Origin: Rouxiella silvae
GTDB taxonomy: Bacteria > Pseudomonadota > Gammaproteobacteria > Enterobacterales > Enterobacteriaceae
Reading direction: 5' to 3'
Length of the DNA stretch: 64,000 bases
Assembly: GCF_002093625.1 (NCBI RefSeq)
Contig: NZ_MRWD01000002.1
Coordinates: 62,001-126,000 of the forward strand
The position numbers were made by a program, and so were the translations under genes. Under the pieces are notes generated by a model. It was not told the DNA's origin. It did not search any database and saw nothing but the letters and a program-made list of their open reading frames with translations. This document shows positions 41,824 through 56,296 of this stretch, piece after piece. Numbering within the stretch: the stretch's first letter is position 1; every line of letters starts with the position of its first letter.

Positions 41824-41825
41824 GA

Positions 41826-42719
41826 ATGAATCGTCGTCATTTTTTGCACCAGGCCCTGACCCTGAGCGCGGCACTCTCCCTGCGCTCTGGGTGGGCCAGC
41901 GCCGGACAGACCGCCGCACCGCGCTGGATTGTCATGAATTGGGGATTTACTGAAATGGCGCTGTCCCTCGGGATAGTGCCGGTGGGGGTTTCTGCGCCCG
42001 CATGGTATCGGCGGCTCTATGCTGCGCCCGCGTTGCCTGCGCAGGTCACCGATGTCGGGCTGCTTTATCAGCCTAATTTCGAAACCTTGCGCGATTTGCA
42101 CCCTACGCTAATGATTATTACCCCAGCTCACGGCATGGCTCGTGCGCAGCTTGCGACTATTTCACCCCTGCTAACCCTTGACAACAACAGCAAAACGCCG
42201 CTTGTACAGGCGATGAAAAACCTACAGCAAATGGCGGCAGCGCTGGGTCGGCCAGAGCGCAGTCAGCGGCTGATTGACCAGGCCAATGCGCGTTTCGAGC
42301 AGCTCAGCCAGACTGTCGCGCCGTATAAAGACACCGCAGTCTATTTGGTTCACGCCGTTGACGTGCTGCACGTTGCGCTGTTCAGCCACGGCAGTTTGTT
42401 TGACGCTGTGCTACAGCGCCTGGGGTTGAGCAACGCCTGCACCATGAAGGGAGGACCCGAAGGCGCGGTGCTGACCACGCTCGACAAGCTGGCGACCGCC
42501 AAGCCGGGCACCGTGGTGTTGCTGCCGTCCTATCCGCAGGTTGATGACCGCGAGGTGCTCAACTCACGGCTGTGGCAAAGTCTCGGCATGTTGCACGCCA
42601 GCAATATTGTGCACATGCCGACAGGACTCGACCCCTCTGGTGGCGTACAAACCGCTGTACGCTTTGCCGAATTTTTGGTGAAGGGGCTCGTCAAACTGGC
42701 GAAGGAAACACGTAGATGA
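41826..42719 (+). CDS. FhuD-like ferric-siderophore binding protein
   Basis: Periplasmic binding protein of the FhuD/BtuF class, 297 aa. The N-terminus M-N-R-R-H-F-L-H-Q-A-L carries a twin-arginine motif followed by a hydrophobic stretch, suggesting Tat export. The body has the two-lobe fold joined by a long helix (Q-A-M-K-N-L-Q-Q-M near residue 130). It starts 3 nt after the receptor stop and overlaps the permease start by ATGA. Expected to pass a hydroxamate siderophore to the FhuB-like permease. Confidence 0.85.
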   Translation: MNRRHFLHQALTLSAALSLRSGWASAGQTAAPRWIVMNWGFTEMALSLGIVPVGVSAPAWYRRLYAAPALPAQVTDVGLLYQPNFETLRDLHPTLMIITPAHGMARAQLATISPLLTLDNNSKTPLVQAMKNLQQMAAALGRPERSQRLIDQANARFEQLSQTVAPYKDTAVYLVHAVDVLHVALFSHGSLFDAVLQRLGLSNACTMKGGPEGAVLTTLDKLATAKPGTVVLLPSYPQVDDREVLNSRLWQSLGMLHASNIVHMPTGLDPSGGVQTAVRFAEFLVKGLVKLAKETRR

Positions 42720-44713
42720 AAGAGCCAACGGGTTGGATAACGCCTGCGAGTTTATGCGCAGTACTGTATTCGACCGCATTTATTTTATGCCTGCAGCAGC
42801 TTATTGACCTGCTGCCCATCGCACTGTGGCGTGTTGTATTTTTCAATCAGCCACTGTTGGCCAGCGTTCAAGAGGTTATTGTTCACGACATGTGGCTGCC
42901 TCGTCAGCTCATGGCGTTGCTGTGCGGTGTCGTTCTGGCGTTCACCGGCGTGGTGATGCAGCAGGTATTGCGAAATCCGCTGGCGGATCCGATGACGCTG
43001 GGTGTGGCCTCGGGTGCCACGCTGACTCTCACGCTAGCCAGCATTCTTGCCCCAGCCTTGTGGGTGGCTGCCCGAGAGTGGATTGCTCTGGTGGGATCGC
43101 TGGTGGCGATGGCGACGGTATTTATGCTCTCGTCGCGGCAGGCCTTTTCACCACTGGCGCTCATTCTGGCGGGGATGCTGGTCAACCTTTATTGCGGTTC
43201 GGTCACCTTATTATTGTCGGTAATTTATGACCGTTCGCTGGCGGCTATTTATATTTGGGGCGGTGGTTCGCTGGTGCAGCAGAATACCGATGAGCTGCTG
43301 TGGCTGCTGCCGAGGCTGCTGGTGTGCCTCGCTCCTGTCATGTTGCTGCTGCGGCCGCTAAGGCTTATGACCTTAAACGAGCAGGTGACACGATCGCTTG
43401 GCATGTCGCCGGGACGGGTGCGCGGCATCGTGTTGGTGGCGGTATTGGCCATGAGCAGCCTGATTATCAGCAGCGTCGGCGTCATTGGATTTATTGGTTT
43501 GGCTGCGCCACATTTGGCGAGTATGGCGGGGGCGAAAAGCCTGCGCCAGCGTGTAGTTTGGTCACCCGCCCTGGGGGGCGGCCTGCTGTGGCTAACTGAT
43601 CAACTGGTGAGTCGCATGAGTGGCATCAACGGTATGCTGCTGCCGACCGGCATGATGACCGCGCTGGCAGGCGGCCCGCTGTTACTGTTTTTTTTGCCGC
43701 GCGTGCGTAATCTTTCAGTGCAGGTGCTGCGCGAAAAGTCGGGCATGTTACAGCCGGCAACTGGACATCCTCGCTACGGACTGGCGCTGATATTACTGCT
43801 GGCAGGCCTGTTTGTGTCACTGGATTTGGGGCGCAGTTTACAGGGCTGGTACTGGGCAAGTTGGCACCAACTGCTGCCATTATTGCCTTTTCGCCTGCCG
43901 CGCATGATAGCAGCACTGGCAGCCGGTGTGCTGCTTGCCGGAGCAGGAGTGCTTATGCAGCGTTTGACCGCCAATCCGATGGCCAGTCCTGAGTTGCTCG
44001 GGATAGGTGCGGGGGCCTCGCTTGGCGTGACGTTGATGCTGCTGCTCGCGCCGCTCAGCGGGATTTTCGGCATGATGCTCAGCAGCAGTATCGGTGCCTT
44101 TGTGACGTTACTTATCACGCTGTGGATAGGCCGTCAGGGCAGTTTTAATCCGCAGCGAGTAATGCTCAGCGGATTGGCAATTACGGCAATTTTTCAATCG
44201 GTGGCTGGCGTGGTGATGGCCAATAATGGACTGGCAGGCAATATGCTGCGCCAGCTAATGACCGGCTCGACCTATTATGTCAGCACCATTGCTGCCGTTG
44301 CTGCGATGCTGCTTGGCGTGCTGTTGCTGTCGATGACCCCGTTAGTACGGCGTTACTTATTACTGTTGCCGCTGAACGAGGTGGCGTCCTCACTGGGTCT
44401 TGGCGTGTCGAAAGCGCGTATTTTAGTATTGATTCTCGCGGCGGCTATGACCGGCGTTGCCACACTCATCGTTGGGCCGCTGTCTTTTGTTGGTCTGCTG
44501 GGGCCGCATATCGCCCGCCGACTCGGCGGCAGAAAACCGCTGGCTCAGCTGTTACTGGCCGTAGTGATTGCCGCCGTTCTCATGGTGATTGCCGACTGGA
44601 TGGGGCGCAATCTTCTCTATCCTCGGCAAATCCCCGCTGGACTGATGGCGACCCTGCTGGGCGGCCCCTGGCTAGCAGTATTACTGTATCAGAAGCAGCA
44701 TCAAGCTGGCTGA
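42716..44713 (+). CDS. FhuB-like fused siderophore permease
   Basis: 665-aa inner-membrane protein made of two FecCD-type permease halves in tandem (about 1-335 and 345-665), as in FhuB. Each half has the R-x-x-x-A-x-x-x-G-x-x-L-A and N-P-L-A-D-P / N-P-M-A-S-P motifs near its second helix and an I-G-F-I-G-L-A-A-P-H / S-F-V-G-L-L-G-P-H ATPase-contact loop. No FhuC ATPase gene is in the window, so one must be supplied in trans. Its end overlaps the convergent pxpC end by 13 nt. Confidence 0.9.
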   Translation: MKEPTGWITPASLCAVLYSTAFILCLQQLIDLLPIALWRVVFFNQPLLASVQEVIVHDMWLPRQLMALLCGVVLAFTGVVMQQVLRNPLADPMTLGVASGATLTLTLASILAPALWVAAREWIALVGSLVAMATVFMLSSRQAFSPLALILAGMLVNLYCGSVTLLLSVIYDRSLAAIYIWGGGSLVQQNTDELLWLLPRLLVCLAPVMLLLRPLRLMTLNEQVTRSLGMSPGRVRGIVLVAVLAMSSLIISSVGVIGFIGLAAPHLASMAGAKSLRQRVVWSPALGGGLLWLTDQLVSRMSGINGMLLPTGMMTALAGGPLLLFFLPRVRNLSVQVLREKSGMLQPATGHPRYGLALILLLAGLFVSLDLGRSLQGWYWASWHQLLPLLPFRLPRMIAALAAGVLLAGAGVLMQRLTANPMASPELLGIGAGASLGVTLMLLLAPLSGIFGMMLSSSIGAFVTLLITLWIGRQGSFNPQRVMLSGLAITAIFQSVAGVVMANNGLAGNMLRQLMTGSTYYVSTIAAVAAMLLGVLLLSMTPLVRRYLLLLPLNEVASSLGLGVSKARILVLILAAAMTGVATLIVGPLSFVGLLGPHIARRLGGRKPLAQLLLAVVIAAVLMVIADWMGRNLLYPRQIPAGLMATLLGGPWLAVLLYQKQHQAG

Positions 44714-45669
44714 GCAGCCTCACGCAGCGTGTTCAACCAGGCATCAAGCAGTGCCTGGCGACCGGCCCACAGTGATTCGGCTTTCTCCACGCTGACCGTT
44801 TCAAACCGCAGCCTGTCGCCAGGTTTAGCCTGCCCAAGTCGAGCGAGATCCGCACGGATCACAGTGGCAATTTTCGGGTAACCGCCAGTGGTTTGTCGGT
44901 CATTCATGGCAACGATCGGTTGCCCATTGCCGGGGATCTGAATACTGCCACGCGCGATAGCATCGGAAATGATATTAAAACCTTTACTGTGGGCAAGCGG
45001 GTCGCCGGTCAGTCGATATCCCATCCGATCGCTTTGTTCGCTAACACGATACTCATTACTCAGAAATTGACCTAGGGCCTGCGCGTCAAAGTGGTCGTCT
45101 TGCGGACCGGCTATCACGCGGATCGGACGCCGTTCGCGCTGTGGCATCGGGCGCTGTTGGGGTTTACTGCACCGGTCTGGCGTAAATGAAGAGGATAAGT
45201 TTAACGCCAGCCAGTCGCCTTTTTGCAACTGACGGCCGTTGAACCCCCCCAGTCCGGCACGCATCAGGGTGGAGACGCTGCCCATCACCGGTTGAACCTT
45301 AAACCCGCCCGCCACGGCCAAATAGCCTCTGGCGCCGCTCAGTGCGCGCGTTATCCGCAGCGTGCTGCCGGGCAGTAGTGTTAGGCGGTGATAGGGCGCG
45401 ACGGCGATGTCGTCAACGGTAAGCGCCATGTCCCCCGTGACGGCAAAAATGCACGGGCTGGAGCCGATTAGCCGCAGCGTAGCACCCGTCAATGTAAACT
45501 CCAGTGCGCCGGTGTTAGCGTCATTGCCGACCAGCGCATTGGCGATGGCAAAGCTCATCTCGTCCATTGCACCCGAAGGCGGTACGCCGCACGCTTCAAA
45601 GCCAAAACGACCCAAATCCTGCAGGCTGGTAAATAAACCGGGGGATAACACCTCAAAACCGTTGTTCAT
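44701..45669 (-). CDS. pxpC: 5-oxoprolinase subunit PxpC
   Basis: 322 aa of the AHS2/KipA family; together with PxpA and PxpB it forms the bacterial ATP-dependent 5-oxoprolinase that opens pyroglutamate to glutamate. Family marks: Q-D-x-G-R near the N-terminus, G-V-P-x-S-G-A-M-D and R-V-I-A-G-P-Q-D near residue 180. ATG 45669 overlaps the pxpB stop (ATGA), so it is preferred over the ATG four codons upstream. Confidence 0.92.
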   Translation of the reverse strand: MNNGFEVLSPGLFTSLQDLGRFGFEACGVPPSGAMDEMSFAIANALVGNDANTGALEFTLTGATLRLIGSSPCIFAVTGDMALTVDDIAVAPYHRLTLLPGSTLRITRALSGARGYLAVAGGFKVQPVMGSVSTLMRAGLGGFNGRQLQKGDWLALNLSSSFTPDRCSKPQQRPMPQRERRPIRVIAGPQDDHFDAQALGQFLSNEYRVSEQSDRMGYRLTGDPLAHSKGFNIISDAIARGSIQIPGNGQPIVAMNDRQTTGGYPKIATVIRADLARLGQAKPGDRLRFETVSVEKAESLWAGRQALLDAWLNTLREAAQPA

Positions 45670-46382
45670 TGCCACGTCCATTCGGGTAAATAGTCAGTTT
45701 TGGCCTGTAAATGCGTGTACTCCTCAACGCCAATGGCGGTGAAGCAAATGCGGTCACCGGCGCTGAAAAGAAAAGGCTCTGCGCGCTCAGGGGCAAAGCT
45801 GCGCACCGGCGTGCGGCCAATCAGGTGCCAGCCGCTGGGGGCTTCAACGGAGCCGACGGCGGTTTGCATGCCACCAATACTGATGCTTCCGGCCGGAACT
45901 TTAAGCCGCGGTGATTCGCGGCGCGAGGTGTGCAGCAGCGGATCGAGACCGCCGAGGTAGGCAAAGCCAGGCATGAAGCCAATCATGTAAACGCGATACG
46001 AACCCGCCACGTGACGCTCCACCACCTCTTGCGGACTTACCCGGTGCGTTTGCGCAAGCCATTCGAGGTCCACGCCCTGTGCGCCGCCGTAGTTAACCGG
46101 AATAGTCCAGATTTTTACCGGATCTGCTTCGCCATCGGGTTGCGATAGCAGGACGTTGAGGGTTGCAACCAGCGCAGACTGCTGCGTTTTGGTGGAATCG
46201 TATCCCACGGTGAGTGCCCGATAGGTGGGAACCAGCGACGTGACGCCAGCCACAGCGCCTTGACGAACGCGCGATGCCAGCGCAGTCACGCGGGCATTAA
46301 TCACCTCATCAATCACATCACCAAAGTCTACGGTGACCGCCTGATCGGCAATCGGCAGAATTCGCCACGGGATTTCGTTCAC
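45666..46382 (-). CDS. pxpB: 5-oxoprolinase subunit PxpB
   Basis: 238 aa of the AHS1/KipI family. Marks: G-F-M-P-G-F-A-Y-L-G-G-L near residue 135 and the P-A-G-S-I-S-I-G-G-M-Q-T stretch near 163. GTG 46382 is the chosen start because a GGAG/AAAGG site stands just upstream; an ATG at 46442 would add 20 atypical residues and overlap the palindrome at 46436-46447. Coupled to pxpC and divergent from pxpA. Confidence 0.9.
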   Translation of the reverse strand: MNEIPWRILPIADQAVTVDFGDVIDEVINARVTALASRVRQGAVAGVTSLVPTYRALTVGYDSTKTQQSALVATLNVLLSQPDGEADPVKIWTIPVNYGGAQGVDLEWLAQTHRVSPQEVVERHVAGSYRVYMIGFMPGFAYLGGLDPLLHTSRRESPRLKVPAGSISIGGMQTAVGSVEAPSGWHLIGRTPVRSFAPERAEPFLFSAGDRICFTAIGVEEYTHLQAKTDYLPEWTWQ

Positions 46383-46435
46383 TTCGCCTTTCTCCTGTTT
46401 AGTACTTTTTAAAACACTTTTAATATGGAATACTT

Positions 46436-46447
46436 TTGGCATACCAA
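46436..46447. promoter_or_regulatory. Palindrome TTGG-CATA-CCAA in the pxpB-pxpA gap
   Basis: Perfect 4-4-4 dyad between divergent pxpB and pxpA. On the same strand TTTTGGCAT-A-CCAA closely resembles the reverse complement of the site at 48457-48469. Candidate operator for a local regulator, for example the GntR protein encoded at 52686. Confidence 0.5.
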
Positions 46448-46594
46448 TGGTGTGCTGTCAATACATCCACAATGTGGCCGTACTCTTGCATCATCTCATC
46501 AGCCGAGTTTTATCGAACACCTTGCATCGACTACATTTCATCAACTATGACAGGCAAGAACAGTGCCAACACTTTTATCAGCCGGAGAAAGAAA

Positions 46595-47365
46595 ATGTTA
46601 ATCGACCTCAATAGCGATATGGGCGAAAGCTTTGGTGCCTGGAAAATGGGCGAAGACAGTGAAATGCTCGGCATTGTCACGTCCGCCAATATCGCCTGCG
46701 GCTTTCACGCGGGCGATCCTGACGTCATGTTCAACACCCTTGGCGAAGCAAAGGCCAACGGCGTTGGCGCTGGAGCGCACCCAAGTTTTTTAGATATTCA
46801 AGGGTTTGGCCGTCGGCAGATTTTAGGTGAAACGCCCGCACAGATTGAGCGGCAGATTATTTATCAGATTGGTGCCCTGAAAGCCTTGGCTGAAAGTATG
46901 GGCTATCCGCTACAGCATGTGAAAACCCACGGCGCGATGGGCAACATGGCGGCGGAAGACCCTCAGCTTGCCATGGCGGTGGCGCGGGCGATTTATGCCG
47001 TCGACAGGGAGCTGATTATGGTGGTGATGCCCGGCATGGAAACCGAAAAGGCCGCCGAGAAATTGGGGCTAAAAGTCGTGCGCGAGATCTATGCCGATCG
47101 CGCCTACACCGAGAGCGGGGCGCTGGTTTCACGTAAGCTTGCTGGCGCAGTCATCCACGATGCACACCAAGCGGCGGAAAGGGTGATGACAATGCTCGAG
47201 AGCCAAGCAATTATCACCCTTGATGGCAAAAAGTTACCGACGCGCATTGACAGTATTTGTGTGCACGGCGATACCCCCGGCGCGGTAGACATGGCGCGCC
47301 AACTGCGGTCATTGCTGGAAAGTAACGGCCTGACGTTGGCGCCGATGGCGAAGGTTATCGCCTGA
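46595..47365 (+). CDS. pxpA: 5-oxoprolinase subunit PxpA (LamB/YcsF family)
   Basis: 256 aa. N-terminus I-D-L-N-S-D-M-G-E-S-F-G, then A-N-I-A-C-G-F-H-A-G-D-P, V-K-T-H-G-A-M-G-N and the late C-V-H-G-D-T-P are the LamB/YcsF signatures; Asp, His and Lys in these motifs line the active site. GGAG precedes ATG 46595; longer frames upstream are not supported. Transcribed away from pxpBC. Confidence 0.95.
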   Translation: MLIDLNSDMGESFGAWKMGEDSEMLGIVTSANIACGFHAGDPDVMFNTLGEAKANGVGAGAHPSFLDIQGFGRRQILGETPAQIERQIIYQIGALKALAESMGYPLQHVKTHGAMGNMAAEDPQLAMAVARAIYAVDRELIMVVMPGMETEKAAEKLGLKVVREIYADRAYTESGALVSRKLAGAVIHDAHQAAERVMTMLESQAIITLDGKKLPTRIDSICVHGDTPGAVDMARQLRSLLESNGLTLAPMAKVIA

Positions 47366-47370
47366 GCAGG

Positions 47371-48333
47371 CTAGCGCCGCCGCGTTTCCCAAATCTGTGG
47401 ATTAAGCAGCGACAGCGGAGCGCGGTCATTGATGACGTCAAGCACCCCAGCAACCGCGGCACTGGCCATGCGCATCAAGGCCTGTTCCGTTGACGCTGCG
47501 GCATGCGGGGTTAGCACCACGTTGGGCAATTGAGTGAGCGGGCTCGATGCGGACAGGGGTTCAACCGCAAAAACGTCAAGACCGGCACCGGCAATTTCGC
47601 CGTTTTGCAGGGCCGCAATCAGCGCCTCTTCGTCTATTAGCGCGCCGCGACTGGTATTGATCAGATAAGCCGAAGGTTTCATCATGGCAAGCTGTATCGA
47701 ACCAATCATCTTCTGCGTCTCGGGCAGCGAAGGCGCATGCAGAGACACGATATCGCTGGTGGTGAGGAGCATTTCGAGGCTGGCGGCTTTTTCCAGCCCC
47801 AGCGCGGCCAGCTCTTGGGCACTGCTTCGCGACAATACCTGTACTCGCATTCCTAGACTGAGCGCGAGTTTGGCGGTCAGTTGACCAATTGCGCCAAATC
47901 CGACCACCCCTAGCGTCGCGCCGAAAAGCTCCCGTAGGCCACCCTCAAAGCGAAAAGAAAATGCCCCTTTACGCACCGCACTGTCCGCCGCAGGCAGGCG
48001 TTTGGTCAGCGCGAACATCAGGCCTATAGCATGTTCTGCCACCGATCGGTTGTTGGTTCCAGGGGTGTTGAACACCGCAATGCCTAAATCCGTGGCGGCC
48101 GTGAGGTCAATACCGTCGATACCCACGCCGTGAACGCCAATTGCCCGAAGGTTAGGCAGCTGCACCATTCTGGTGCGCGAAAATTGACCACTGCGGTATA
48201 TCGCCGCGACCACATTCTCTGCCACTGCGCTGTTGCAGGCCTCCTCACCAACCCACGGTTCGACGCCATATTCCCTTAGTGTTTGCAAGCCGCTGACGTG
48301 GATCGGCTGGGGGATAAGACAAAGTTTGTTCAT
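47371..48333 (-). CDS. D-isomer-specific 2-hydroxyacid dehydrogenase
   Basis: 320-aa NAD(P)-dependent reductase of the phosphoglycerate-dehydrogenase superfamily. The Rossmann loop G-V-V-G-F-G-A-I-G lies near residue 145; the catalytic set is Arg in N-T-S-R-G-A-L, Glu in the L-D-V-F-A-V-E-P region and His in T-P-H-A-A-A-S. It converges on pxpA (5-nt gap) and is divergent from the DUF1989 operon. A 2-keto/2-hydroxyacid step in the same pathway is plausible. Substrate unknown. Confidence 0.85.
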   Translation of the reverse strand: MNKLCLIPQPIHVSGLQTLREYGVEPWVGEEACNSAVAENVVAAIYRSGQFSRTRMVQLPNLRAIGVHGVGIDGIDLTAATDLGIAVFNTPGTNNRSVAEHAIGLMFALTKRLPAADSAVRKGAFSFRFEGGLRELFGATLGVVGFGAIGQLTAKLALSLGMRVQVLSRSSAQELAALGLEKAASLEMLLTTSDIVSLHAPSLPETQKMIGSIQLAMMKPSAYLINTSRGALIDEEALIAALQNGEIAGAGLDVFAVEPLSASSPLTQLPNVVLTPHAAASTEQALMRMASAAVAGVLDVINDRAPLSLLNPQIWETRRR

Positions 48334-48456
48334 TTTTTCGCTCTTTTCTCAGGAATATTTTTCATTCTTTTTAATGGAGGTTTTTAAATCATTTCGCCTA
48401 AAAAGTGTGCTTGGCATTTTAATTGCATTTCTTGTGTATACCAAAGGAATTCCAAC

Positions 48457-48469
48457 TTTGGATGCCAAA
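48457..48469. promoter_or_regulatory. Palindrome TTTGG-ATG-CCAAA before the DUF1989 gene
   Basis: 5-3-5 perfect dyad in the 174-nt gap between the divergent dehydrogenase and DUF1989 genes, close in sequence to the site at 46436. Suggests co-regulation of both divergent pairs. Confidence 0.5.
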
Positions 48470-48507
48470 AAGTAACAGCACTGTTTTTTTATAGCGAGAG
48501 GAATTGT

Positions 48508-49161
48508 ATGACCGCCATAAACGACTCATCTCTGTCCAATTTTGTATTGGATGCAACACGCGGTACCGCCGTAGCATTACGCAAGGGCCAGGTGTTAAGC
48601 ATTACCAATCTCCAGGGAAATCAAGTTGTTGATGCTTGGGCTGTGATGCAGTCTGACCCTTTTGAATATTCGTCCATGGAACACACACGCTCAGTTAACA
48701 GCAATCTGTTCTATCAGTTGCAGATGCCGGTGGTCAGTGTTTACCGCCGTGCGATGTTTACACTGGTGGGTGACACCACGCCGGGCCGTCACGACACGTT
48801 GCTCTGTCCGTGCAATGCCGCTATCTATCGCGAGTTGGGTTGTACGGAATATCACCGCAGTTGTACCGATAATTTTCACGAGGCCTTAAAAGAGCAGGGC
48901 ATCACGCTGCCCTTTACGCCCGCCTCACTGAATCTGTTTATGAATGTGCCTATTACAGAAGCCGGTGAGCTGGACCGTGTTCCGCCGCGATCGGTAGCCG
49001 GTGATGTTCTGCAACTGCGCGCGGAAGCCGATATCTACGTGGTGCTTTCGGCCTGCCCGCAGGACATCACCCCAATCAATGGCGCACTGCGCCAGCCTGC
49101 CGACATTGGGCTTGGCATCTCTAACGACAATGCGAAAAGCGTGCCGGAGGAGGTCAAATGA
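48508..49161 (+). CDS. DUF1989 protein (urea-carboxylase-associated family)
   Basis: 217 aa of the DUF1989 family, first met as urea-carboxylase-associated proteins; two members are the CgdA/CgdB subunits of carboxyguanidine deiminase. A run of cysteines and histidines (L-C-P-C-N-A, L-G-C-T-E-Y-H-R-S-C, about residues 91-122) is the likely metal/active-site core. No urea or guanidine carboxylase lies nearby, so this member probably acts on another C-N substrate. It overlaps the ABC ATPase start (ATGA) and leads the operon. Confidence 0.85.
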   Translation: MTAINDSSLSNFVLDATRGTAVALRKGQVLSITNLQGNQVVDAWAVMQSDPFEYSSMEHTRSVNSNLFYQLQMPVVSVYRRAMFTLVGDTTPGRHDTLLCPCNAAIYRELGCTEYHRSCTDNFHEALKEQGITLPFTPASLNLFMNVPITEAGELDRVPPRSVAGDVLQLRAEADIYVVLSACPQDITPINGALRQPADIGLGISNDNAKSVPEEVK

Positions 49162-49976
49162 TGGAAACAAATTCCCCGCTGCTGACCATTAAAGAGTTGA
49201 ACAAAAGTTACGGCGACCTGCACGTGCTGAAAAACGTCGCGCTTGACGTACATAAAGGTGAGGTCGTGTCGATTATCGGCGCCAGCGGTTCGGGCAAAAG
49301 CACCTTTTTACGCTGTCTCAATGTAATGGAAATGCCGCAAAGCGGATTTATGAATTTCGACGAGTTCTCCTTTGATTTTCGTGAGGGTGCTCGCGACCAG
49401 CCGACCGTCGAGCAGCTGCGCCTGCTGCGTGCACGCATTGGCATGGTGTTTCAAAGCTATAACCTGTGGCCGCACATGACCGTGTTGGAAAACGTCATTG
49501 AAGCGCCGTTGCGGGTAAAAAAAATGCCGCGCAAGCTGGCGATTGAGCTGGCCGAAAGCCTGCTCAGCCGAGTCGGGCTGTATGAAAAACGCCACCAATA
49601 TCCTGCCAAGCTTTCCGGCGGCCAGCAACAGCGCGTCGCGATTGCCCGCGCGCTGGCGATGAAACCGCAGCTGATGCTGTTTGATGAAGTGACGTCGGCG
49701 CTAGACCCCGAGCTGGTGGGGGAGGTGCTGTCTCTGATGGCTTCCTTGGCCGACGAAGGGATGACCATGCTGTTGGTGACGCACGAGATTGCCTTTGCCC
49801 GCGACGTTTCGTCTCGCGTGGTGTTCTTCGATCAAGGAGTGATGGCCGAAGACGGGCCGCCAAAACAGGTGTTGCACAATCCAGAGAGTCCGCGCCTGCG
49901 GCAGTTTCTTAGCCGCATTTTGCATGAAGACATTTTACACGATGAGAGCAGAAGTCTGCCGGGGAGCCAGCCATGA
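49158..49976 (+). CDS. Polar amino-acid ABC ATPase (HisP/GlnQ type)
   Basis: 272 aa: Walker A G-A-S-G-S-G-K-S near residue 36, Q-loop F-Q-S-Y-N-L-W-P-H, signature L-S-G-G-Q-Q-Q-R near 153, Walker B L-M-L-F-D-E-V-T and switch T-H-E, typical of polar amino-acid importers. Coupled to both neighbours by ATGA overlaps. Works with the permease and with the binding protein at 51740. Confidence 0.92.
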   Translation: MMETNSPLLTIKELNKSYGDLHVLKNVALDVHKGEVVSIIGASGSGKSTFLRCLNVMEMPQSGFMNFDEFSFDFREGARDQPTVEQLRLLRARIGMVFQSYNLWPHMTVLENVIEAPLRVKKMPRKLAIELAESLLSRVGLYEKRHQYPAKLSGGQQQRVAIARALAMKPQLMLFDEVTSALDPELVGEVLSLMASLADEGMTMLLVTHEIAFARDVSSRVVFFDQGVMAEDGPPKQVLHNPESPRLRQFLSRILHEDILHDESRSLPGSQP

Positions 49977-50629
49977 ATCAACTCTGGAGTGACATCAACA
50001 CCTACGGCATGGGGTTTCTGGAAGCGTCCTGGACCGTTTTGCTCATCACGATTTGTACCATCGTGCTGAGTTGGGTATTTGGTTTCATGGCAGTCAGTGC
50101 CAAAACCTCATCGGTGAAGCTGTTTCGCGGTATCGGCCGCTTCTACATTTGGTTTATTCGTGGAACACCGGCGCTGATTCAGGTCTTCGTGGTCTATTTT
50201 GGTTTTCCACAGATTGGCATTCACCTGTCGCCTTTTGTGGCGGGCGTGCTTGCGCTGGCGATGAACAGCGGCGCATACGTGGCCGAAATAATCCGTTCAG
50301 GCCTGAAAGCCATTCCGCGCAGCCAGATGGAGTCCGCTTCGGCGCTGGGCATGAGCAAAGGTGAAATCATGCGCCGCATCGTGCTGCCGCAGGTGTTTCG
50401 CATCGTGCTGCCGCCACTGACCAACGAAGCCATCTCAACGCTGAAAAATACTTCGCTGCTGTCGACCATTACCGTTGTCGATATCACGCTGTACGCACAA
50501 ACCATCATTTCTGCCACCTTCCGCCCGTTCCAGTTTTATATTGCGGCGGCGCTGATTTATCTGCTGCTGACCACGCTGCTTACCGAGCTTTCCGACTGGC
50601 TCGAACGTCGTCAGGCGCGCTTTAGCTGA
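49973..50629 (+). CDS. Polar amino-acid ABC permease (HisM/GlnP type)
   Basis: 218-aa inner-membrane permease, about five helices. F-I-R-G-T-P-A-L-I-Q near residue 60 and the EAA-like loop (S-A-S-A-L-G-M-S-K-G-E near 120) define the His/Glu/Gln/Arg/opine family. Only one permease gene is present, so it may act as a homodimer. Confidence 0.9.
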   Translation: MNQLWSDINTYGMGFLEASWTVLLITICTIVLSWVFGFMAVSAKTSSVKLFRGIGRFYIWFIRGTPALIQVFVVYFGFPQIGIHLSPFVAGVLALAMNSGAYVAEIIRSGLKAIPRSQMESASALGMSKGEIMRRIVLPQVFRIVLPPLTNEAISTLKNTSLLSTITVVDITLYAQTIISATFRPFQFYIAAALIYLLLTTLLTELSDWLERRQARFS

Positions 50630-50646
50630 TTACTACGAGGTTTTTT

Positions 50647-51597
50647 ATGAGCGTTTTACCGACAGATTCACTTGAAACTCCCCGCTTTTGCGGCGTACCG
50701 ACCTTTATGCGCCTGCCGATGGCCAGCGATCTCAGCCAATTGGATGCGGCGATTATCGGACTGCCTTCTGACTCGGGTGCGCCGTTTCGCACCGGCGCAC
50801 GCTTTGGGCCGAATGCAGTGCGCGCGATGTCAATTATGCTGCGCCCGATAAACCCTTATCGTAATGATATCAATGTGTTTGATACGCTGCGCTGTGCCGA
50901 CGCCGGTGATGCAGCCGTCGTTCCAGGCTATGAAGAGGAGTGCCTGGCGCGCATTGAGCAGGCGGTTTATGCATTATCGAGTGCGGGGGTGGTTCCCTGC
51001 GGTATCGGCGGAGACCACTCTATTACCTTGGCCGAGCTGCGCGCCGTAGCCAAGGTGCATGGTCCGCTGGCGCTGGTGCAGTTCGACTCGCACAGCGATA
51101 CCTGGGACAAATATTTTGCCGACAAGCGTTACAGCGCCGGCACGCCGTTTCGCCGCGCGGTAGAAGAGCAGCTGGTTGACCCGTCCTGTTCTATTCAGGT
51201 CGGGCTGCGCGGTTCACTATTTCGTACCTCTGACATTACCCAGTCTATCGACCTCGGTTATGAGGTGTTTACCACCGATCAGATGTTTGAGCTGGGGATA
51301 AAAGAGATGGCGCAGCGCATCGCCGAGCGCACCGCTGGTCGTCCTACCTTTATTACCTTTGATATGGATTTTGTCGATCCCGCCTTTGCGCCCGGTGTGC
51401 AAACCCCTGAGGCTGGTGGCCCCAGCGCGCGTGAAGCGCTGCTGCTGCTGCGCGCCTTGAAAGGCATCAACATGGTGGGCTGTGACGTAACCGAAATCAG
51501 CCCGATGTACGACGGACCAGGGCAAATTACCTCTTTGCTCGGTGCGACGGTAATGGCCGAGCTGTTGGCATTATTGGCCAGTGAACGCGCGGCATAA
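50647..51597 (+). CDS. Ureohydrolase (agmatinase/guanidino-acid hydrolase family)
   Basis: 316 aa of the arginase/agmatinase superfamily, which releases urea from guanidino compounds with two Mn ions. Metal ligands by motif: His124 (G-G-D-H-S), Asp147, His149 and Asp151 (F-D-S-H-S-D, where Ala is usual after the first Asp), Asp239 and Asp241 (F-D-M-D). The C-terminal signature reads A-P-G-V-Q-T-P-E-A-G-G. The N-terminal V-P-T-F-M-R-L-P is closer to guanidinobutyrase/guanidinopropionase than to arginase. It sits inside the amino-acid ABC operon, so its substrate is probably what the importer brings in. Confidence 0.88.
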   Translation: MSVLPTDSLETPRFCGVPTFMRLPMASDLSQLDAAIIGLPSDSGAPFRTGARFGPNAVRAMSIMLRPINPYRNDINVFDTLRCADAGDAAVVPGYEEECLARIEQAVYALSSAGVVPCGIGGDHSITLAELRAVAKVHGPLALVQFDSHSDTWDKYFADKRYSAGTPFRRAVEEQLVDPSCSIQVGLRGSLFRTSDITQSIDLGYEVFTTDQMFELGIKEMAQRIAERTAGRPTFITFDMDFVDPAFAPGVQTPEAGGPSAREALLLLRALKGINMVGCDVTEISPMYDGPGQITSLLGATVMAELLALLASERAA

Positions 51598-51739
51598 GTG
51601 CGTAGTCAGTATAAACGAGTTGTATAAGAAAGGTTTTGGACCGTTTTAGATGCAGTTTTCGACAGGATTTTAACGGTGTTTTTGACACTATTTTCAACAC
51701 AGGCGATCTTCTTCCCATCTATAAATTGAGAGTGACATT

Positions 51740-52543
51740 ATGAAAATTAAGCGTTTTCTTAGCATTGCCACCGTTCTCGCTGCGATGGCTACACCTTGGT
51801 TTGCAACGGCCGCCGACGGTGCCGGAAAATTGGAACTGCTCACTCCGGGCAAGCTGAGCGTGGCGACCGAAGGGACCGATCCTCCGTTCAGCATGCGCGA
51901 CCCTAATGGTCAGCTCGATGGCCTGGAGATCCGGGTCATGAAAGAGGTGGCGCGTCGCCTGCATCTGGAATACACGCCGGTGATTACCAAATGGGACTCG
52001 ATTCTCGTGGGGCTGCAGGCCAACCAGTTTGATATGAGCAGCGCCGCTATGGACATCACGCCTGCGCGTCAGAAGGCAATTGTTTTCTCCGATGGCTGGA
52101 TTGAGTCAGGCGGTCGCATCATCATTCCTTTGAAATCTGATATAAAATCAGCCAAAGATCTACAGGGTAAACGCATTGGTGCACAGGTTTCTTCAACCTA
52201 TGCCCAGTTGGCAGTAGACCACGGCGCAACGCTCAAGAACTATATCGACGTGACAGCGGCGGTGCAGGACTTGGCTAACGGCAACATTGACGGCGTCATC
52301 AACGACTCTATAGGCAATGCCTATCTGATTAAGGATATGCATTTGCCGCTGACGCAAACGCCTGACTACGTTAGCGTTATTCAGAAAGGTTTTGCCTTTA
52401 AAAAGGGCAAACCCAATTTGGTTGCGGCGGTAAACAAGGCGCTGGCGGATATGAAGGCCGATGGCACCTATGCTAAACTCGTCACCCCTATTGTGGGCTT
52501 CGATCCGGCACCTAAAGATCCGGTACGCACGCTTCCTCAGTAA
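51740..52543 (+). CDS. Amino-acid ABC transporter binding protein, family 3
   Basis: 267 aa with a 24-residue signal peptide ending T-A-A. SBP_bac_3 fold: L-S-V-A-T-E-G-T-D-P-P-F near the mature N-terminus, D-G-L-E-I-R-V-M-K-E-V, and F-D-M-S-S-A-A-M-D-I-T-P-A-R. Usual ligand-binding Arg and Asp positions of polar amino-acid binders are present. A 142-nt gap from the ureohydrolase gene may hold its own promoter. Ligand unknown, perhaps a guanidino amino acid. Confidence 0.9.
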   Translation: MKIKRFLSIATVLAAMATPWFATAADGAGKLELLTPGKLSVATEGTDPPFSMRDPNGQLDGLEIRVMKEVARRLHLEYTPVITKWDSILVGLQANQFDMSSAAMDITPARQKAIVFSDGWIESGGRIIIPLKSDIKSAKDLQGKRIGAQVSSTYAQLAVDHGATLKNYIDVTAAVQDLANGNIDGVINDSIGNAYLIKDMHLPLTQTPDYVSVIQKGFAFKKGKPNLVAAVNKALADMKADGTYAKLVTPIVGFDPAPKDPVRTLPQ

Positions 52544-52631
52544 CTGTGTTATCAGCCATGGCGGGACACAGTCTGATGTTCACTCTGAAAGAGTTCATTT
52601 TCAGAGACTTGTCGGGCGCGAGTAAAAGCAT

Positions 52632-52657
52632 GGCAGGCATCCGTGCCTGCCTTTTTT
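52632..52657 (+). terminator. Rho-independent terminator
   Basis: GGCAGGCA / TGCCTGCC perfect 8-bp stem, 4-nt loop, six Ts. Ends the amino-acid transport operon before the GntR gene. A second inverted repeat (52583-52590 / 52599-52606) precedes it. Confidence 0.92.
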
Positions 52658-52685
52658 ATCAGTCTTGTTAATGTGAAATGACACC

Positions 52686-53357
52686 ATGGATTCTATCAAA
52701 AGAGCCTCTGATTTGATTGGTGAGCGTGAGCAGAACCTCAGCACCAAAGCCTACGAAGTGCTGCTGAATATGCTGATTAATCGGGAGTTACCGGTCAATA
52801 CCGTGCTGCAGGAGCGGCGGCTGGCGGAGCTGCTCAATATTTCACGTACGCCGGTGCGCGATGCGCTTAATCGGTTGGAAAACGAAGGGTTTATTATTCG
52901 CACCGGCGGTCGTACACCGGTGGTTAAAGAGTTTTCAATTCGTGAGCTGGTAGAAACGCTGCACGTGCGCCGCACGCTGGAATCGGAAGCGGCCAGTCTG
53001 GCTGCAGGGCGAGTTCCCTCTGCCGAACTGGACGCCATTGAGGCCGGAATTCGTAAGCTGTTGGCCGATAGTACCCCAAGCCCGCAGGAGGATTGGGAGA
53101 TTGACAGTCGCCTGCACAGCGCGCTGGCACACTACAGCGGCAATATGTTGCTGATGCAGTACATTGAAAGCCTGCGTCTTAAAACGCGGATGTTCAACCT
53201 GCGTCAGGTTCCTGAGCGCTTTGTGAGCGGACACCATGAACATCTGGAAATTATCGCCGCCCTGCGCAGCGGTGATGCCGACGGAGCACGCGCTGCGGCG
53301 GCAAAACATATTGATAACGTTCGCGAAAGCATCGTTCGGCGTTTGAGTCAGCTGTAA
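52686..53357 (+). CDS. GntR-family regulator (FadR/FCD subfamily)
   Basis: 223 aa: N-terminal winged HTH (R-R-L-A-E-L-L-N-I-S-R-T-P-V-R-D-A-L-N-R-L near residues 41-61) and an all-helical FCD domain whose histidines (D-S-R-L-H near 140, then a late H-H-E-H) would bind metal and ligand. It lies directly behind the amino-acid transport operon and is its likely regulator. Amino- or carboxylic-acid ligands are usual for this group. Confidence 0.88.
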   Translation: MDSIKRASDLIGEREQNLSTKAYEVLLNMLINRELPVNTVLQERRLAELLNISRTPVRDALNRLENEGFIIRTGGRTPVVKEFSIRELVETLHVRRTLESEAASLAAGRVPSAELDAIEAGIRKLLADSTPSPQEDWEIDSRLHSALAHYSGNMLLMQYIESLRLKTRMFNLRQVPERFVSGHHEHLEIIAALRSGDADGARAAAAKHIDNVRESIVRRLSQL

Positions 53358-53370
53358 ACAGTTGCAGACG

Positions 53371-54330
53371 TTACTGTAGCCGCCGAACCGGTTCACCGGC
53401 GATAAACGCCTGGATATCTTCGATGGCTTCATTAAAGTAAATACGATAGTTATCGTCAGTGACATAGCCCAGATGCGGCGTGGCGAGCACGTTGGGCAGG
53501 TGACGGTAGGGATGATTGTCGGGCAGTGGCTCAAGGTCGAAAACGTCCAGACCGGCGCCGGCAATCTTTTGCTTAGTCAGCGCGTCAAGCAGGGCTGACG
53601 GGTCAACTAGCGCGGCGCGGGACGTGTTAATTAGAAACGCGCCGGGATGCATACAGGCCAGATCGTCGGCGTCGATTATACCGCGACTGCGCTCGCTCAA
53701 TACCAGATGCAACGAAACAAAATCGCTGTTTTTCAATAATGCCTGCTTCGATTCTGCCAAGGTTACCTTCAACTGGGCCGCACGCTCAGCGGTAAGATTC
53801 TGACTCCAGGCAACAACGTTCATGCCAAAAGCCTGACCTATTAAGGCCATTTTCTCGCCAATTTTACCCAGTCCAACCAACCCTAACGTTTTACCGCGCA
53901 GGCCAACGCCGAGCGTACTCTGCCACGGGCCGCTGTTGCGTATTGAGCGGTTTTCAACGGTAAGATGGCGCGCCAACCCCAGAATAAGCGCCCAAGTCAG
54001 CTCCACCGGCGCATCCGAGCCGCTGCCGGTGCCGCAAACGGTAATTCCCTGCGCCGTTGCAGCTGCCAAATCAATCGATGCATTACGCATTCCTGAAGTG
54101 ATCAGCAGCTTGAGTTTCGGCAGTCGCGACAATAGCTGTGCGGTAATTGGCGTACGTTCGCGCATAATCACCATAATATCGGCATCCATCAAGGCCTCAA
54201 CCAAGCGGTCCTGATTCTGAATAGGATTATGTAACGCCACCGTGTCAACCTCTGGTGCCAGCACCGACCAGTCGGCCTGAGACAAAGCGACATTTTGATA
54301 ATCATCGAGAATAACGCAGCGTAAAGTCAT
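53371..54330 (-). CDS. D-2-hydroxyacid dehydrogenase family protein
   Basis: 319 aa from ATG 54330 (AGGGAAAAG upstream). Rossmann loop G-L-V-G-L-G-K-I-G near residue 147; Arg in N-T-S-R-A-A-L, Glu in the D-L-E-P region and His in T-P-H-L-G-Y complete the family catalytic set. It converges on the GntR gene, 13 nt apart. A second such enzyme lies at 47371, so the two frame the ureohydrolase cluster. Substrate unknown. Confidence 0.85.
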   Translation of the reverse strand: MTLRCVILDDYQNVALSQADWSVLAPEVDTVALHNPIQNQDRLVEALMDADIMVIMRERTPITAQLLSRLPKLKLLITSGMRNASIDLAAATAQGITVCGTGSGSDAPVELTWALILGLARHLTVENRSIRNSGPWQSTLGVGLRGKTLGLVGLGKIGEKMALIGQAFGMNVVAWSQNLTAERAAQLKVTLAESKQALLKNSDFVSLHLVLSERSRGIIDADDLACMHPGAFLINTSRAALVDPSALLDALTKQKIAGAGLDVFDLEPLPDNHPYRHLPNVLATPHLGYVTDDNYRIYFNEAIEDIQAFIAGEPVRRLQ

Positions 54331-54548
54331 GATCTTTTCCCTGAGGTTGAGACGAGCGTTCAATAAATTAAAATCCATAAAGTTATAGCAGCGCCCGCGT
54401 GAGTGTGAAAGTCGAGCCGTAGCCAATAATTGTCACATTGTATGACAATGTGCCTTGATAATGGTTTGCATAAAACTATTCTTTACCTAATCTTTAACGT
54501 TATCTTATTGATGTAAGGAATAGATAATCTCACGACACAGGGAATGTT

Positions 54549-55225: not shown

Positions 55226-56296
55226 TTAAGCTTTCGGGAAAATCCACACGTCCTTGGCCGGCAGCGTCAGGCGGCACAGCGCGGCGTCACGCACGTCTGT
55301 GCCATAGGCGCGAATCACAAAGTCATCGGCCTGAGTACGGAACAGATACTCCCAGCGGTCGCCGAGATACATGCTGGTCAGCAGTGCAAGCTGTAGCTGA
55401 TTATCTTCTGGGCCGTCGGCCAACCGCACCCGCTCGACGCGAATAACTGCCGTACCCTCGGCCCCGGCCTGGACGCCTTCGCCAGCCTTACCCCACAGCA
55501 CCCAGTCTTTGCCTTCGATTCGCGCCTGGCCGTCACGCACTTCGGTGACTTTACCGTGCAGGCGGTTGTTGCTGCCCATAAACTCGGCAGTGAACAGGCT
55601 AGTAGGAGAGCCGTACATTGACTGCGGCGTGCCTTCCTGCTCGATTTTGCCGTTGTTAAGCAGCAAAATTCGGTCGGAAATCGCCATCGCCTCATTCTGG
55701 TCATGGGTCACCATCAGTGCCGACAGTCCCAGCTTGATGATTAGCTCGCGCAGGAACACGCGCGCTTCTTCACGCAGCTTGGCATCAAGGTTCGACAGCG
55801 GTTCATCGAGCAGAATAACCGGCGGGTTGTAAACCAGAGCGCGGCCAATCGCCACGCGCTGTTGCTGACCTCCGGACAACTGATGCGGATGGCGTTTGCC
55901 TAAATGCCCCAAACCGAGCTGGTCGAGCACGCTTTGCACGCGTTGATTGGTCTCGCTTGAGGAGGTTTTACGCAATTTCAGCGGATAGGCCACGTTTTCA
56001 AACACAGTTTTGTGCGGCCACAGTGCGTAAGACTGAAATACCAGACCCAGATTGCGCTCCTCGGCTGGAATTTCACTGCGCGCGGTACCGGCATATACCG
56101 TATTCTGACCGATAATAATTTTCCCCTGCGTGGGCTTTTCCAGTCCGGCTACTGCGCGTAATAGCGTCGTTTTGCCACTGCCGGAAGGGCCGAGCAGCGA
56201 GACCACTTCACCGCGCCTCAGCTCCATCGATACCCCTTTAAGCACCGGATTGTCGCCGTAGGTTAAATGCAGGTTTTCTACCTTCATTTCAATCAT
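55226..56296 (-). CDS. ABC ATPase, Fe3+/AfuC-FbpC-like
   Basis: 356 aa. Walker A G-P-S-G-S-G-K-T-T near residue 37, F-Q-S-Y-A-L-W-P-H-K Q-loop, L-S-G-G-Q-Q-Q-R signature, L-L-D-E-P-L-S-N-L-D and T-H-D, followed by a TOBE domain from about 245. ATG 56296 has GGAG upstream and overlaps the permease stop, so it is preferred over the longer frame. Third gene of a binding protein-permease-ATPase operon. Confidence 0.88.
   Translation of the reverse strand: MIEMKVENLHLTYGDNPVLKGVSMELRRGEVVSLLGPSGSGKTTLLRAVAGLEKPTQGKIIIGQNTVYAGTARSEIPAEERNLGLVFQSYALWPHKTVFENVAYPLKLRKTSSSETNQRVQSVLDQLGLGHLGKRHPHQLSGGQQQRVAIGRALVYNPPVILLDEPLSNLDAKLREEARVFLRELIIKLGLSALMVTHDQNEAMAISDRILLLNNGKIEQEGTPQSMYGSPTSLFTAEFMGSNNRLHGKVTEVRDGQARIEGKDWVLWGKAGEGVQAGAEGTAVIRVERVRLADGPEDNQLQLALLTSMYLGDRWEYLFRTQADDFVIRAYGTDVRDAALCRLTLPAKDVWIFPKA

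Follow-up and report, generated by a model that had tools for sequence, protein, structure and literature searches.

Eleven genes lie within positions 44701–54426 of a 64-kb stretch of the Rouxiella silvae genome (contig NZ_MRWD01000002.1; hereafter, the window), and open reading frames (ORFs) together with Pfam and NCBIfam searches confirm the families and positions that a first-pass annotation, made from the letters alone, had assigned to them (Table 1). They encode homologues of the three 5-oxoprolinase subunits (PxpA, PxpB, and PxpC), a DUF1989 protein, a polar amino-acid ATP-binding cassette (ABC) importer, a ureohydrolase, a GntR regulator, and two D-2-hydroxyacid dehydrogenases. The genes pxpBC and pxpA are divergent, as are hdh1 and the DUF1989 gene, and 4-base overlaps join DUF1989 to abcA and abcA to abcP, with the ureohydrolase gene 17 bases further on according to the ORF coordinates. 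In the program-made list, the pxpB ORF is too long, starting at ATG 46442 and thus including an operator-like site; the GTG codon, preceded by AGGAG, is probably the actual start. A hairpin with a T-run downstream of the binding-protein gene would close the DUF1989–sbp operon, and terminator-like hairpins in the region are not above the level of shuffled sequences (9 vs. a shuffle mean of 13).

Table 1. Genes and sequence features of the cluster (positions in the window).
Feature	Position	Strand	Basis and remarks
PxpC-like subunit (CT_A_B), divergent paralogue	44701..45681	-	Pfam, 323 bits
PxpB-like subunit (CT_C_D)	45666..46382	-	Pfam, 228 bits; start revised to GTG 46382
Operator-like palindrome CTTTTGGCATACCAATGG, pxpB/pxpA divergent region	46433..46450		18.2 bits, other-genera matrix
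PxpA-like subunit (LamB_YcsF)	46595..47365	+	Pfam, NCBIfam; ATG 46595 preceded by GGAG
D-2-hydroxyacid dehydrogenase (hdh1)	47371..48333	-	Pfam
Operator-like palindrome TCTTGTGTATACCAAAGG, hdh1/DUF1989 divergent region	48430..48447		18.0 bits, other-genera matrix
DUF1989 protein	48508..49161	+	Pfam PF09347, 158 bits
Polar amino-acid ABC ATPase (abcA)	49158..49976	+	NCBIfam only; outside the Pfam run
Polar amino-acid ABC permease (abcP)	49973..50629	+	Pfam, NCBIfam
Ureohydrolase, guanidino-acid type, Ala164 at proton-shuttle His site	50647..51597	+	Pfam, alignments
Family-3 amino-acid binding protein (SBP_bac_3, sbp)	51740..52543	+	Pfam, alignment
Terminator-like hairpin with T-run, between sbp and gntR	52632..52658	+	Hairpin scan
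GntR/FCD regulator (gntR)	52686..53357	+	Pfam; presumed owner of the operator
Gap; site of M20 carbamoylase and class I aminotransferase genes in relatives	53358..53370		Genus comparison
Second D-2-hydroxyacid dehydrogenase (hdh2)	53371..54426	-	Pfam

The first-pass annotation had proposed that these packed genes form a catabolic set, and their co-conservation in a clade of the DUF1989 tree argues for a real set rather than a chance assembly. Briefly, one genome per species (84,980 genomes) was scanned with the window DUF1989 protein, and peptide patterns taken from this protein recruited 61 loci, with the closest matches in Serratia sp. M24T3 and Rouxiella species. The tree of 80 rows contains a module group of 44 rows (support 92/85, below the level starred by the tool) with an inner group of 41 rows (95/98), and a branch supported at 96/97 separates the module group from CgdAB-like DUF1989 sequences. 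The 44 rows are the window, 42 of the 61 recruited loci (hereafter, module loci), and own_C39_2, a long-branch DUF1989 paralogue of the source genome whose placement in the group is unsure; this partition replaced an earlier one with some hand-included loci. Among the 42 module loci, pxpA and pxpB were each found in 29, pxpC in 31, hdh1 in 33, an M20 carbamoylase gene in 30, the ureohydrolase gene in 31, and the binding-protein gene in 36, whereas the corresponding numbers among the 19 other loci were 0, 0, 3, 1, 0, 11 (there of different, distant families), and 10. At least two pxp genes occur in 32 of the 42 module loci, gntR of the window type in 19, another GntR gene in 23, and at least one of these regulators in 37. 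The counts are lower bounds because filtering of the BLAST-based labels drops some genes (pxpA of L033, for example, is present but unlabelled), and Fisher statistics on them are descriptive only, the loci being related by kinship.

The gene order differs among Enterobacterales, Pseudomonas, Rhizobiaceae, Rhodobacterales, and Xanthobacteraceae; therefore, the linkage has outlived rearrangement, and the gene set is, as judged from gene content, conserved from gamma- to alphaproteobacteria, its carriers being distantly related plant and soil bacteria. Plasmids of Agrobacterium (L082) and Shinella (L083) carry pxpABC with genes for a D-amino-acid transaminase, a GntR regulator, a hydroxyacid dehydrogenase, and an M20 hydrolase, together with a second GntR, two M24 proteins, a VOC protein, DUF1989, and ABC genes; a ureohydrolase gene was not found in these two stretches. 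In 398 Pseudomonadota genomes drawn regardless of the cluster, 38 have a ureohydrolase match at E ≤ 1e-70 and 10 a DUF1989 match at E ≤ 1e-40, and the identity exceeds 45% for the former and 46% for the latter only in the source genome and in G710 (69% and 59%, respectively), where the two close genes lie approximately 1.5 kb apart, as in the window. G710 confirms the layout but adds no new species because it groups with L033 at zero branch length in the ureohydrolase tree. Furthermore, the ureohydrolase is matched in six of 369 genomes of the class, with more than 47% identity only in the source genome, and it occurs in seven of 40 relatives (six of the genus and one of the family).

Regulation points in the same direction. 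A palindrome of the TTGGTATACCAA type lies upstream of both the pxp genes and the DUF1989/importer genes, and its GTATAC core occurs in the hdh1/DUF1989 gap of 13 of 16 gammaproteobacterial stretches, the three without it being from Erwinia/Pantoea. A first matrix, built from those 13 sites, ranks the pxpB/pxpA site second in the window, and a second matrix, built from nine sites of other genera, ranks the pxpB/pxpA and hdh1/DUF1989 sites first and second in all 64 kb, with scores (Table 1) above the best of 60 Markov sequences of window length (15.2 bits). The nine sites, of which eight precede DUF1989 (two of them between divergent pxpB and DUF1989 genes) and one precedes the binding-protein gene (L033), had been picked with the first matrix, which included the site on the DUF1989 side of the window itself; neither matrix contains pxp sites from the window or from other gammaproteobacteria. 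When the search was repeated over 46 stretches with each locus left out in turn, 63 sites scored 12 bits or more, and 50 of these fell in upstream zones, which run from 250 bases ahead of an ORF start to 90 bases past it and make up 19% of the bases. Sites precede DUF1989 in 27 of 39 cases, pxpB in 15 of 33, pxpA in 12 of 33, and M24b in 13 of 18, and none of at least 12 bits was found before gntR, ureohydrolase, pxpC, or M20 genes in these stretches. The two possibilities, raised by the first-pass annotation against its own proposal, that relatives do not share the gene set and that the pxp and importer sides answer to unrelated signals are thus not borne out, and the module probably has a common regulator.

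The same evidence bears on the alternative that two separate units, i.e., Pxp/carbamoylase/dehydrogenase and importer/DUF1989/ureohydrolase, are joined only by a shared regulator or regulator class. The Salipiger locus (L084) contains the pxp/M20/dehydrogenase core with SDR, DapA-like, and aminotransferase genes, a TRAP importer, and a site before pxpB, and neither DUF1989 nor ureohydrolase was found within its 25-kb stretch; therefore, the core is suggested to be a downstream unit. Conversely, four loci of approximately 20 kb each (L014, L026, L042, and L045) carry a module-type DUF1989 gene and no pxp gene. The genes of the two units also evolve at different rates, with dN/dS within the genus of approximately 0.02 for the ureohydrolase, binding protein, and permease and of 0.05–0.13 for pxpB, pxpC, hdh1, and M20, these ratios being rough because dS is approximately 0.6–2.7 (once beyond calculation) in all pairs but window–G003 (0.14–0.51). 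Such a loose association is rather unlikely in view of the pxp genes, at least two of which stand beside DUF1989 in most module loci across bacterial orders and in varied arrangements, and of the operator-like site common to both sides.

The ureohydrolase is of the guanidino-acid type and not a plain agmatinase, to judge from its best solved relatives, GpuA (273 bits), GbuA (244 bits), and proclavaminate amidino hydrolase (PAH; 243 bits); against curated agmatinase models, it scores 175.5 bits for TIGR01230 (barely above the cut-off of 174.3) and 270.2 bits for PRK02190 (cut-off, 302). Like those three enzymes, it keeps the six metal ligands (H124, D147, H149, D151, D239, and D241 in the GGDH, DxHxD, and DxD motifs), the guanidinium-site Glu, and the carboxylate-side Arg, the retained residues including E283, R66, and Y156; the binuclear metal ligands are kept in the module members too, with one truncated ORF (L030) lacking the C-terminal part in the alignment. 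Unlike in GpuA, GbuA, and PAH, the His of the HGT motif is replaced by Ala (SAGT), and the gene stands in a DUF1989 and Pxp context. The SAGT motif is found in all 31 aligned module members (the window and 30 loci, at least 60% identity) and in five further genus copies and one family copy, whereas His is present in 35 of 35 non-module homologues; L111, a 36th, proved to be a module member with SAGT. The outgroup is limited to ureohydrolases with a returned locus, namely 34 loci (including one module member) together with L085 and L080; the 20 rows from loci with two ureohydrolases and L061 have other motifs and stand outside the His/Ala counts, as does the 31st module locus, from Sodalis (L048), a disrupted copy in which the motif site is uncovered. 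In the tree, the module ureohydrolases form a clade of 32 rows with 100/100 support. The Trp of SDTW was rejected as a mark of this subfamily, being present in outgroup members too.

The conserved His of the HGT motif corresponds to His163 of Escherichia coli agmatinase, and Y156 matches a GpuA position that determines specificity. In the E. coli enzyme, the H163F variant retains 3–5% activity and Deinococcus has Asn at this position (PMC8125230), so some activity could remain in the Ala-type ureohydrolase. R66 aligns with R72 of GbuA, an Arg that reaches over from the neighbouring subunit to contact the carboxylate of the substrate (PMC9772407), and is kept in every module member covering the site. 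The low dN/dS given above indicates that strong purifying selection acts on the protein, whatever its role. A rival explanation is plain guanidino-acid utilisation, in which a 3-guanidinopropionase- or guanidinobutyrase-like ureohydrolase would release urea and the other genes would be accessory: the nearest solved relatives, the metal ligands, R66, and Y156 all fit. Nevertheless, this explanation is unlikely, since the proton-shuttle His has become Ala in every aligned module member, 11 of the 42 module loci retain the rest of the set without a detected ureohydrolase, and the use of a simple guanidino acid does not call for Pxp, DUF1989, or a carbamoylase. Because the catalytic His is gone and the gene was not found in those 11 loci, the ureohydrolase is not the indispensable step.

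The window DUF1989 protein retains three zinc-site Cys residues and a conserved HD in an alignment with 3oru and Tdm segments. Tdm has a Cys3 zinc site and acts on trimethylamine N-oxide (TMAO) (PMC12560246), the step from carboxyguanidine to allophanate in the guanidine carboxylase pathway falls to DUF1989 proteins (PMC12186494), and the family is linked to carboxyguanidine deiminase (PMC11271267). The cluster shares with the CgdAB/guanidine carboxylase pathway the DUF1989 family, the zinc-site Cys, and a nearby ABC importer, but differs in that a single DUF1989 of its own clade is present, paired subunits beside a carboxylase are not found, and neither a carboxylase, as the first-pass annotation had stated, nor an allophanate hydrolase is among the genes of the cluster. 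The family membership of DUF1989 and the domains that PxpBC share with urea carboxylase might also be explained by a guanidine or urea carboxylase-type system that has lost its carboxylase. This explanation, already disfavoured, is highly improbable: the window protein scores 100.9 bits against TIGR03424 (cut-off, 284.7) and 69.7 bits against TIGR03425 (cut-off, 205.95), i.e., below both UAAP2/UAAP1 models, the 96/97 branch parts it from that type, and a separate operon on contig 61 of the same genome (L069, 3056–10805) combines genes for an ABC system with a DUF1989 pair and a CT_A_B-containing frame of 1225 aa, of the urea/guanidine carboxylase type. A further locus of the source genome, on contig 39 (L068, 8233–12482), contains genes for a binding protein, a DUF1989 pair, permeases, and a third DUF1989 protein 46% identical to that of the window; no carboxylase or ureohydrolase was read among the ORFs of this 20-kb stretch.

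The Pxp proteins match the known 5-oxoprolinase PxpABC in their three linked subunit families, and window PxpB exceeds the cut-off of TIGR00370 (167.3 vs. 145.55 bits). For the other two subunits, the name 5-oxoprolinase given by the first-pass annotation lacks support at equivalog level, as window PxpC reaches only 248.9 of the 500 bits of equivalog NF045499 and window PxpA falls short of three equivalog models while passing two subfamily models. By contrast, a pxpBCA set on contig 85 of the same genome lies beside a pyroglutamyl-peptidase gene, and its PxpC scores 562.5 of 500 bits and its PxpA passes two of the three equivalogs. Because of this canonical set, the window Pxp, a divergent paralogue, is unlikely to be the 5-oxoprolinase of the cell, and an operon for using 5-oxoproline (pyroglutamate) that the other genes have joined by hitch-hiking, for which the presence of all three families and the PxpB score would speak, is very improbable on the PxpC and PxpA scores and the contig-85 set. 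In total, the source genome has three PxpA-family genes and five CT_A_B proteins, two of them in long carboxylase-size frames. The third PxpA-family gene, on contig 108 (L092), stands beside an SDR gene, and ORFs there, judged by reading alone, resemble genes for a LysR-type regulator and for an amino-acid ABC permease.

The gene list of the first-pass annotation was right for the genes it named and incomplete in one respect, which is invisible from the window alone: in four of six genomes of the genus (L101–L104, of which L101, L103, and L104 appear to be the same genomes as L007, L008, and L009), an M20 carbamoylase gene and a class I aminotransferase gene stand beside gntR. Both are missing at this place in the window strain and in G003 (L100), and the closest M20 protein found anywhere in the source genome shares 33% identity, the closest aminotransferase 53%. 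The M20 protein of relatives exceeds the cut-off of the hydantoinase/carbamoylase model TIGR01879 (274 bits in L008 and 236 in L021 vs. 204). It also matches the model of ErtE, an N-carbamyl-L-glutamate amidohydrolase (NF058540), with 284 bits, but this is below the cut-off of 520, and the window genome has no close copy of the gene. Relaxed selection on pxp and hdh1 in the M20-less strain was considered and not seen in the rough dN/dS ratios. Conversely, the second dehydrogenase, which had been counted as a member, drops out: hdh2 is labelled only in members of the genus, with the window protein as the sole reference, and is, on this distribution, not co-conserved and not part of the module.

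In amino-acid binding proteins, an Arg holds the carboxylate and an Asp the alpha-amine of the ligand. Both residues are kept in 43 of 43 aligned binding proteins of the set, which have an additional invariant Asp (MDIT) where the reference has Thr, and the Arg/Asp/extra-Asp pattern is equal in loci with and without the ureohydrolase.

Taken together, we propose that the cluster is one undescribed, co-regulated catabolic regulon that imports an amidine or guanidino amino acid and degrades it via a ring-opening step, a tentative reading to which we give a probability of roughly 0.44; a description of the cluster was not found in the literature covered, most subscription papers being outside that coverage. 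A guanidino amino acid or its lactam is plausible as the substrate class, and the compound probably is a ring already or closes into one readily. In general, ureohydrolases attack the carbon of guanidine groups by hydrolysis, PxpABC uses ATP to open a lactam, and N-carbamoyl groups are split off by M20 enzymes of this family. The ABC system would import an alpha-amino acid with an extra cationic group, and DUF1989, as a zinc iminohydrolase-type protein, and the divergent ureohydrolase would hydrolyse the amidine or guanidino carbon; if this carbon is substituted on both nitrogens, the product would be a hydantoin or an N-carbamoyl amino acid and not urea. The PxpABC paralogue would then open a five-membered lactam- or hydantoin-like ring, spending ATP, and the M20 carbamoylase would release the amino acid (the P. 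viridiflava locus, L012, has an extra gene of the N-formylglutamate-amidohydrolase family). Finally, aminotransferases and the D-2-hydroxyacid dehydrogenase, joined in some lineages by DapA- or RraA-like aldolases (the latter in L044), would carry the skeleton to central metabolism. Because the M20 and aminotransferase genes are missing, breakdown in the window strain may end with the carbamoyl product, proceed by way of unrelated enzymes, or rely on the route through the ureohydrolase.

This order resembles the creatinine route, in which a deiminase, an ATP-dependent N-methylhydantoinase, and an N-carbamoylsarcosine amidohydrolase act in turn, i.e., the imino group is removed, the ring is opened at the expense of ATP, and the carbamoyl group is released. 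The protein families are unrelated, and the likeness is one of step order; creatinine itself, canavanine, modified histidines, and ectoine-like compounds were considered as further candidate substrates. Because the proposed steps mirror the route via N-methylhydantoin, the favoured substrate is a guanidino amino acid that is either cyclic or substituted. A more specific and quite improbable version is that the regulon handles the entire breakdown of cyclic compounds of this kind, e.g., arginine-derived hydroimidazolones (glycation products). Here, DUF1989 would hydrolyse the exocyclic C–N bond to yield ornithine and a 5-substituted hydantoin, and the Pxp paralogue, derived from 5-oxoprolinase, would work as an ATP-dependent hydantoinase. 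The ureohydrolase, devoid of the His, would cut the ring-opened, doubly substituted guanidine into ornithine and an N-carbamoyl amino acid, and the M20 enzyme, transaminases, and aldolases would finish the sugar-derived part.

Several observations weigh against the proposal of a single regulon. The order of the steps and the chemistry are deduced from protein families, and the loss of the His could mean that the ureohydrolase is non-catalytic. Nine of the 42 module loci have no pxp gene in the fetched DNA (pieces shorter than 12 kb in L011, L018, L036, L038, and L043, and the four loci of approximately 20 kb mentioned above), and, besides the 11 loci without a detected ureohydrolase, 12 are without M20; compensation of the former by the latter was rejected, both being missing in four loci where approximately three are expected if they are independent. 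As for the operator, a third window site at 20846 (16.2 bits) also exceeds the Markov controls, a fourth at 57095 scoring 14.7 bits with the second matrix; the core has 18 matches in the window vs. 16.5 expected and a shorter form 17 vs. 10.8, and the consensus has 90 matches in the genome vs. 74 for the reversed pattern. The short consensus is not clearly enriched, and the operator consensus was rejected as a stand-alone marker. The window GntR is the presumed owner of the operator, a candidate link, and on contig 38, closely grouped sites stand in front of a sugar phosphotransferase system/glycosidase operon that has an FCD-type GntR of its own; therefore, regulators of this class may have the motif in common.

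Other loci and the surroundings of the cluster provide further observations. In Candidatus Sodalis endolongispinus (L048), the cluster is decaying: the DUF1989 alignment ends in the C-terminal third, and the ureohydrolase is split over two reading stretches with a stop. Ten loci from Bradyrhizobium, Microvirga, and others (L047, L049–L054, L056, L062, and L064) combine two different ureohydrolases with an ABC importer and DUF1989, and one partner is without the His-bearing motif, which is reminiscent of heteromeric metformin hydrolases. In Ancylobacter (L057, 2999–10570, and L058), DUF1989 accompanies an amino-acid ABC system, a luciferase-like monooxygenase, and a 641-aa protein with no Pfam match at 1e-8. 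On the flanks of the window cluster, a Peripla_BP_2 binding protein with a double FecCD permease (41817–44713) and an ABC ATPase with a permease (55226–58058) look like iron uptake genes outside the module. Nothing foreign stands out in the base composition of 38–60 kb of the window, and a near-identity search against plasmids gave, among the matches listed, pieces of at most 3% of the query.

The module provides a defined, testable regulon for DUF1989, a family whose only functions in the literature covered are carboxyguanidine deimination and TMAO demethylation. Furthermore, it draws attention to a ureohydrolase subfamily that is under selection and is missing the presumed proton-shuttling residue, as well as to a Pxp paralogue whose substrate may be a novel lactam or hydantoin, and the ligand of the binding protein could reveal an unrecognised nitrogen source of plant- and soil-associated bacteria.

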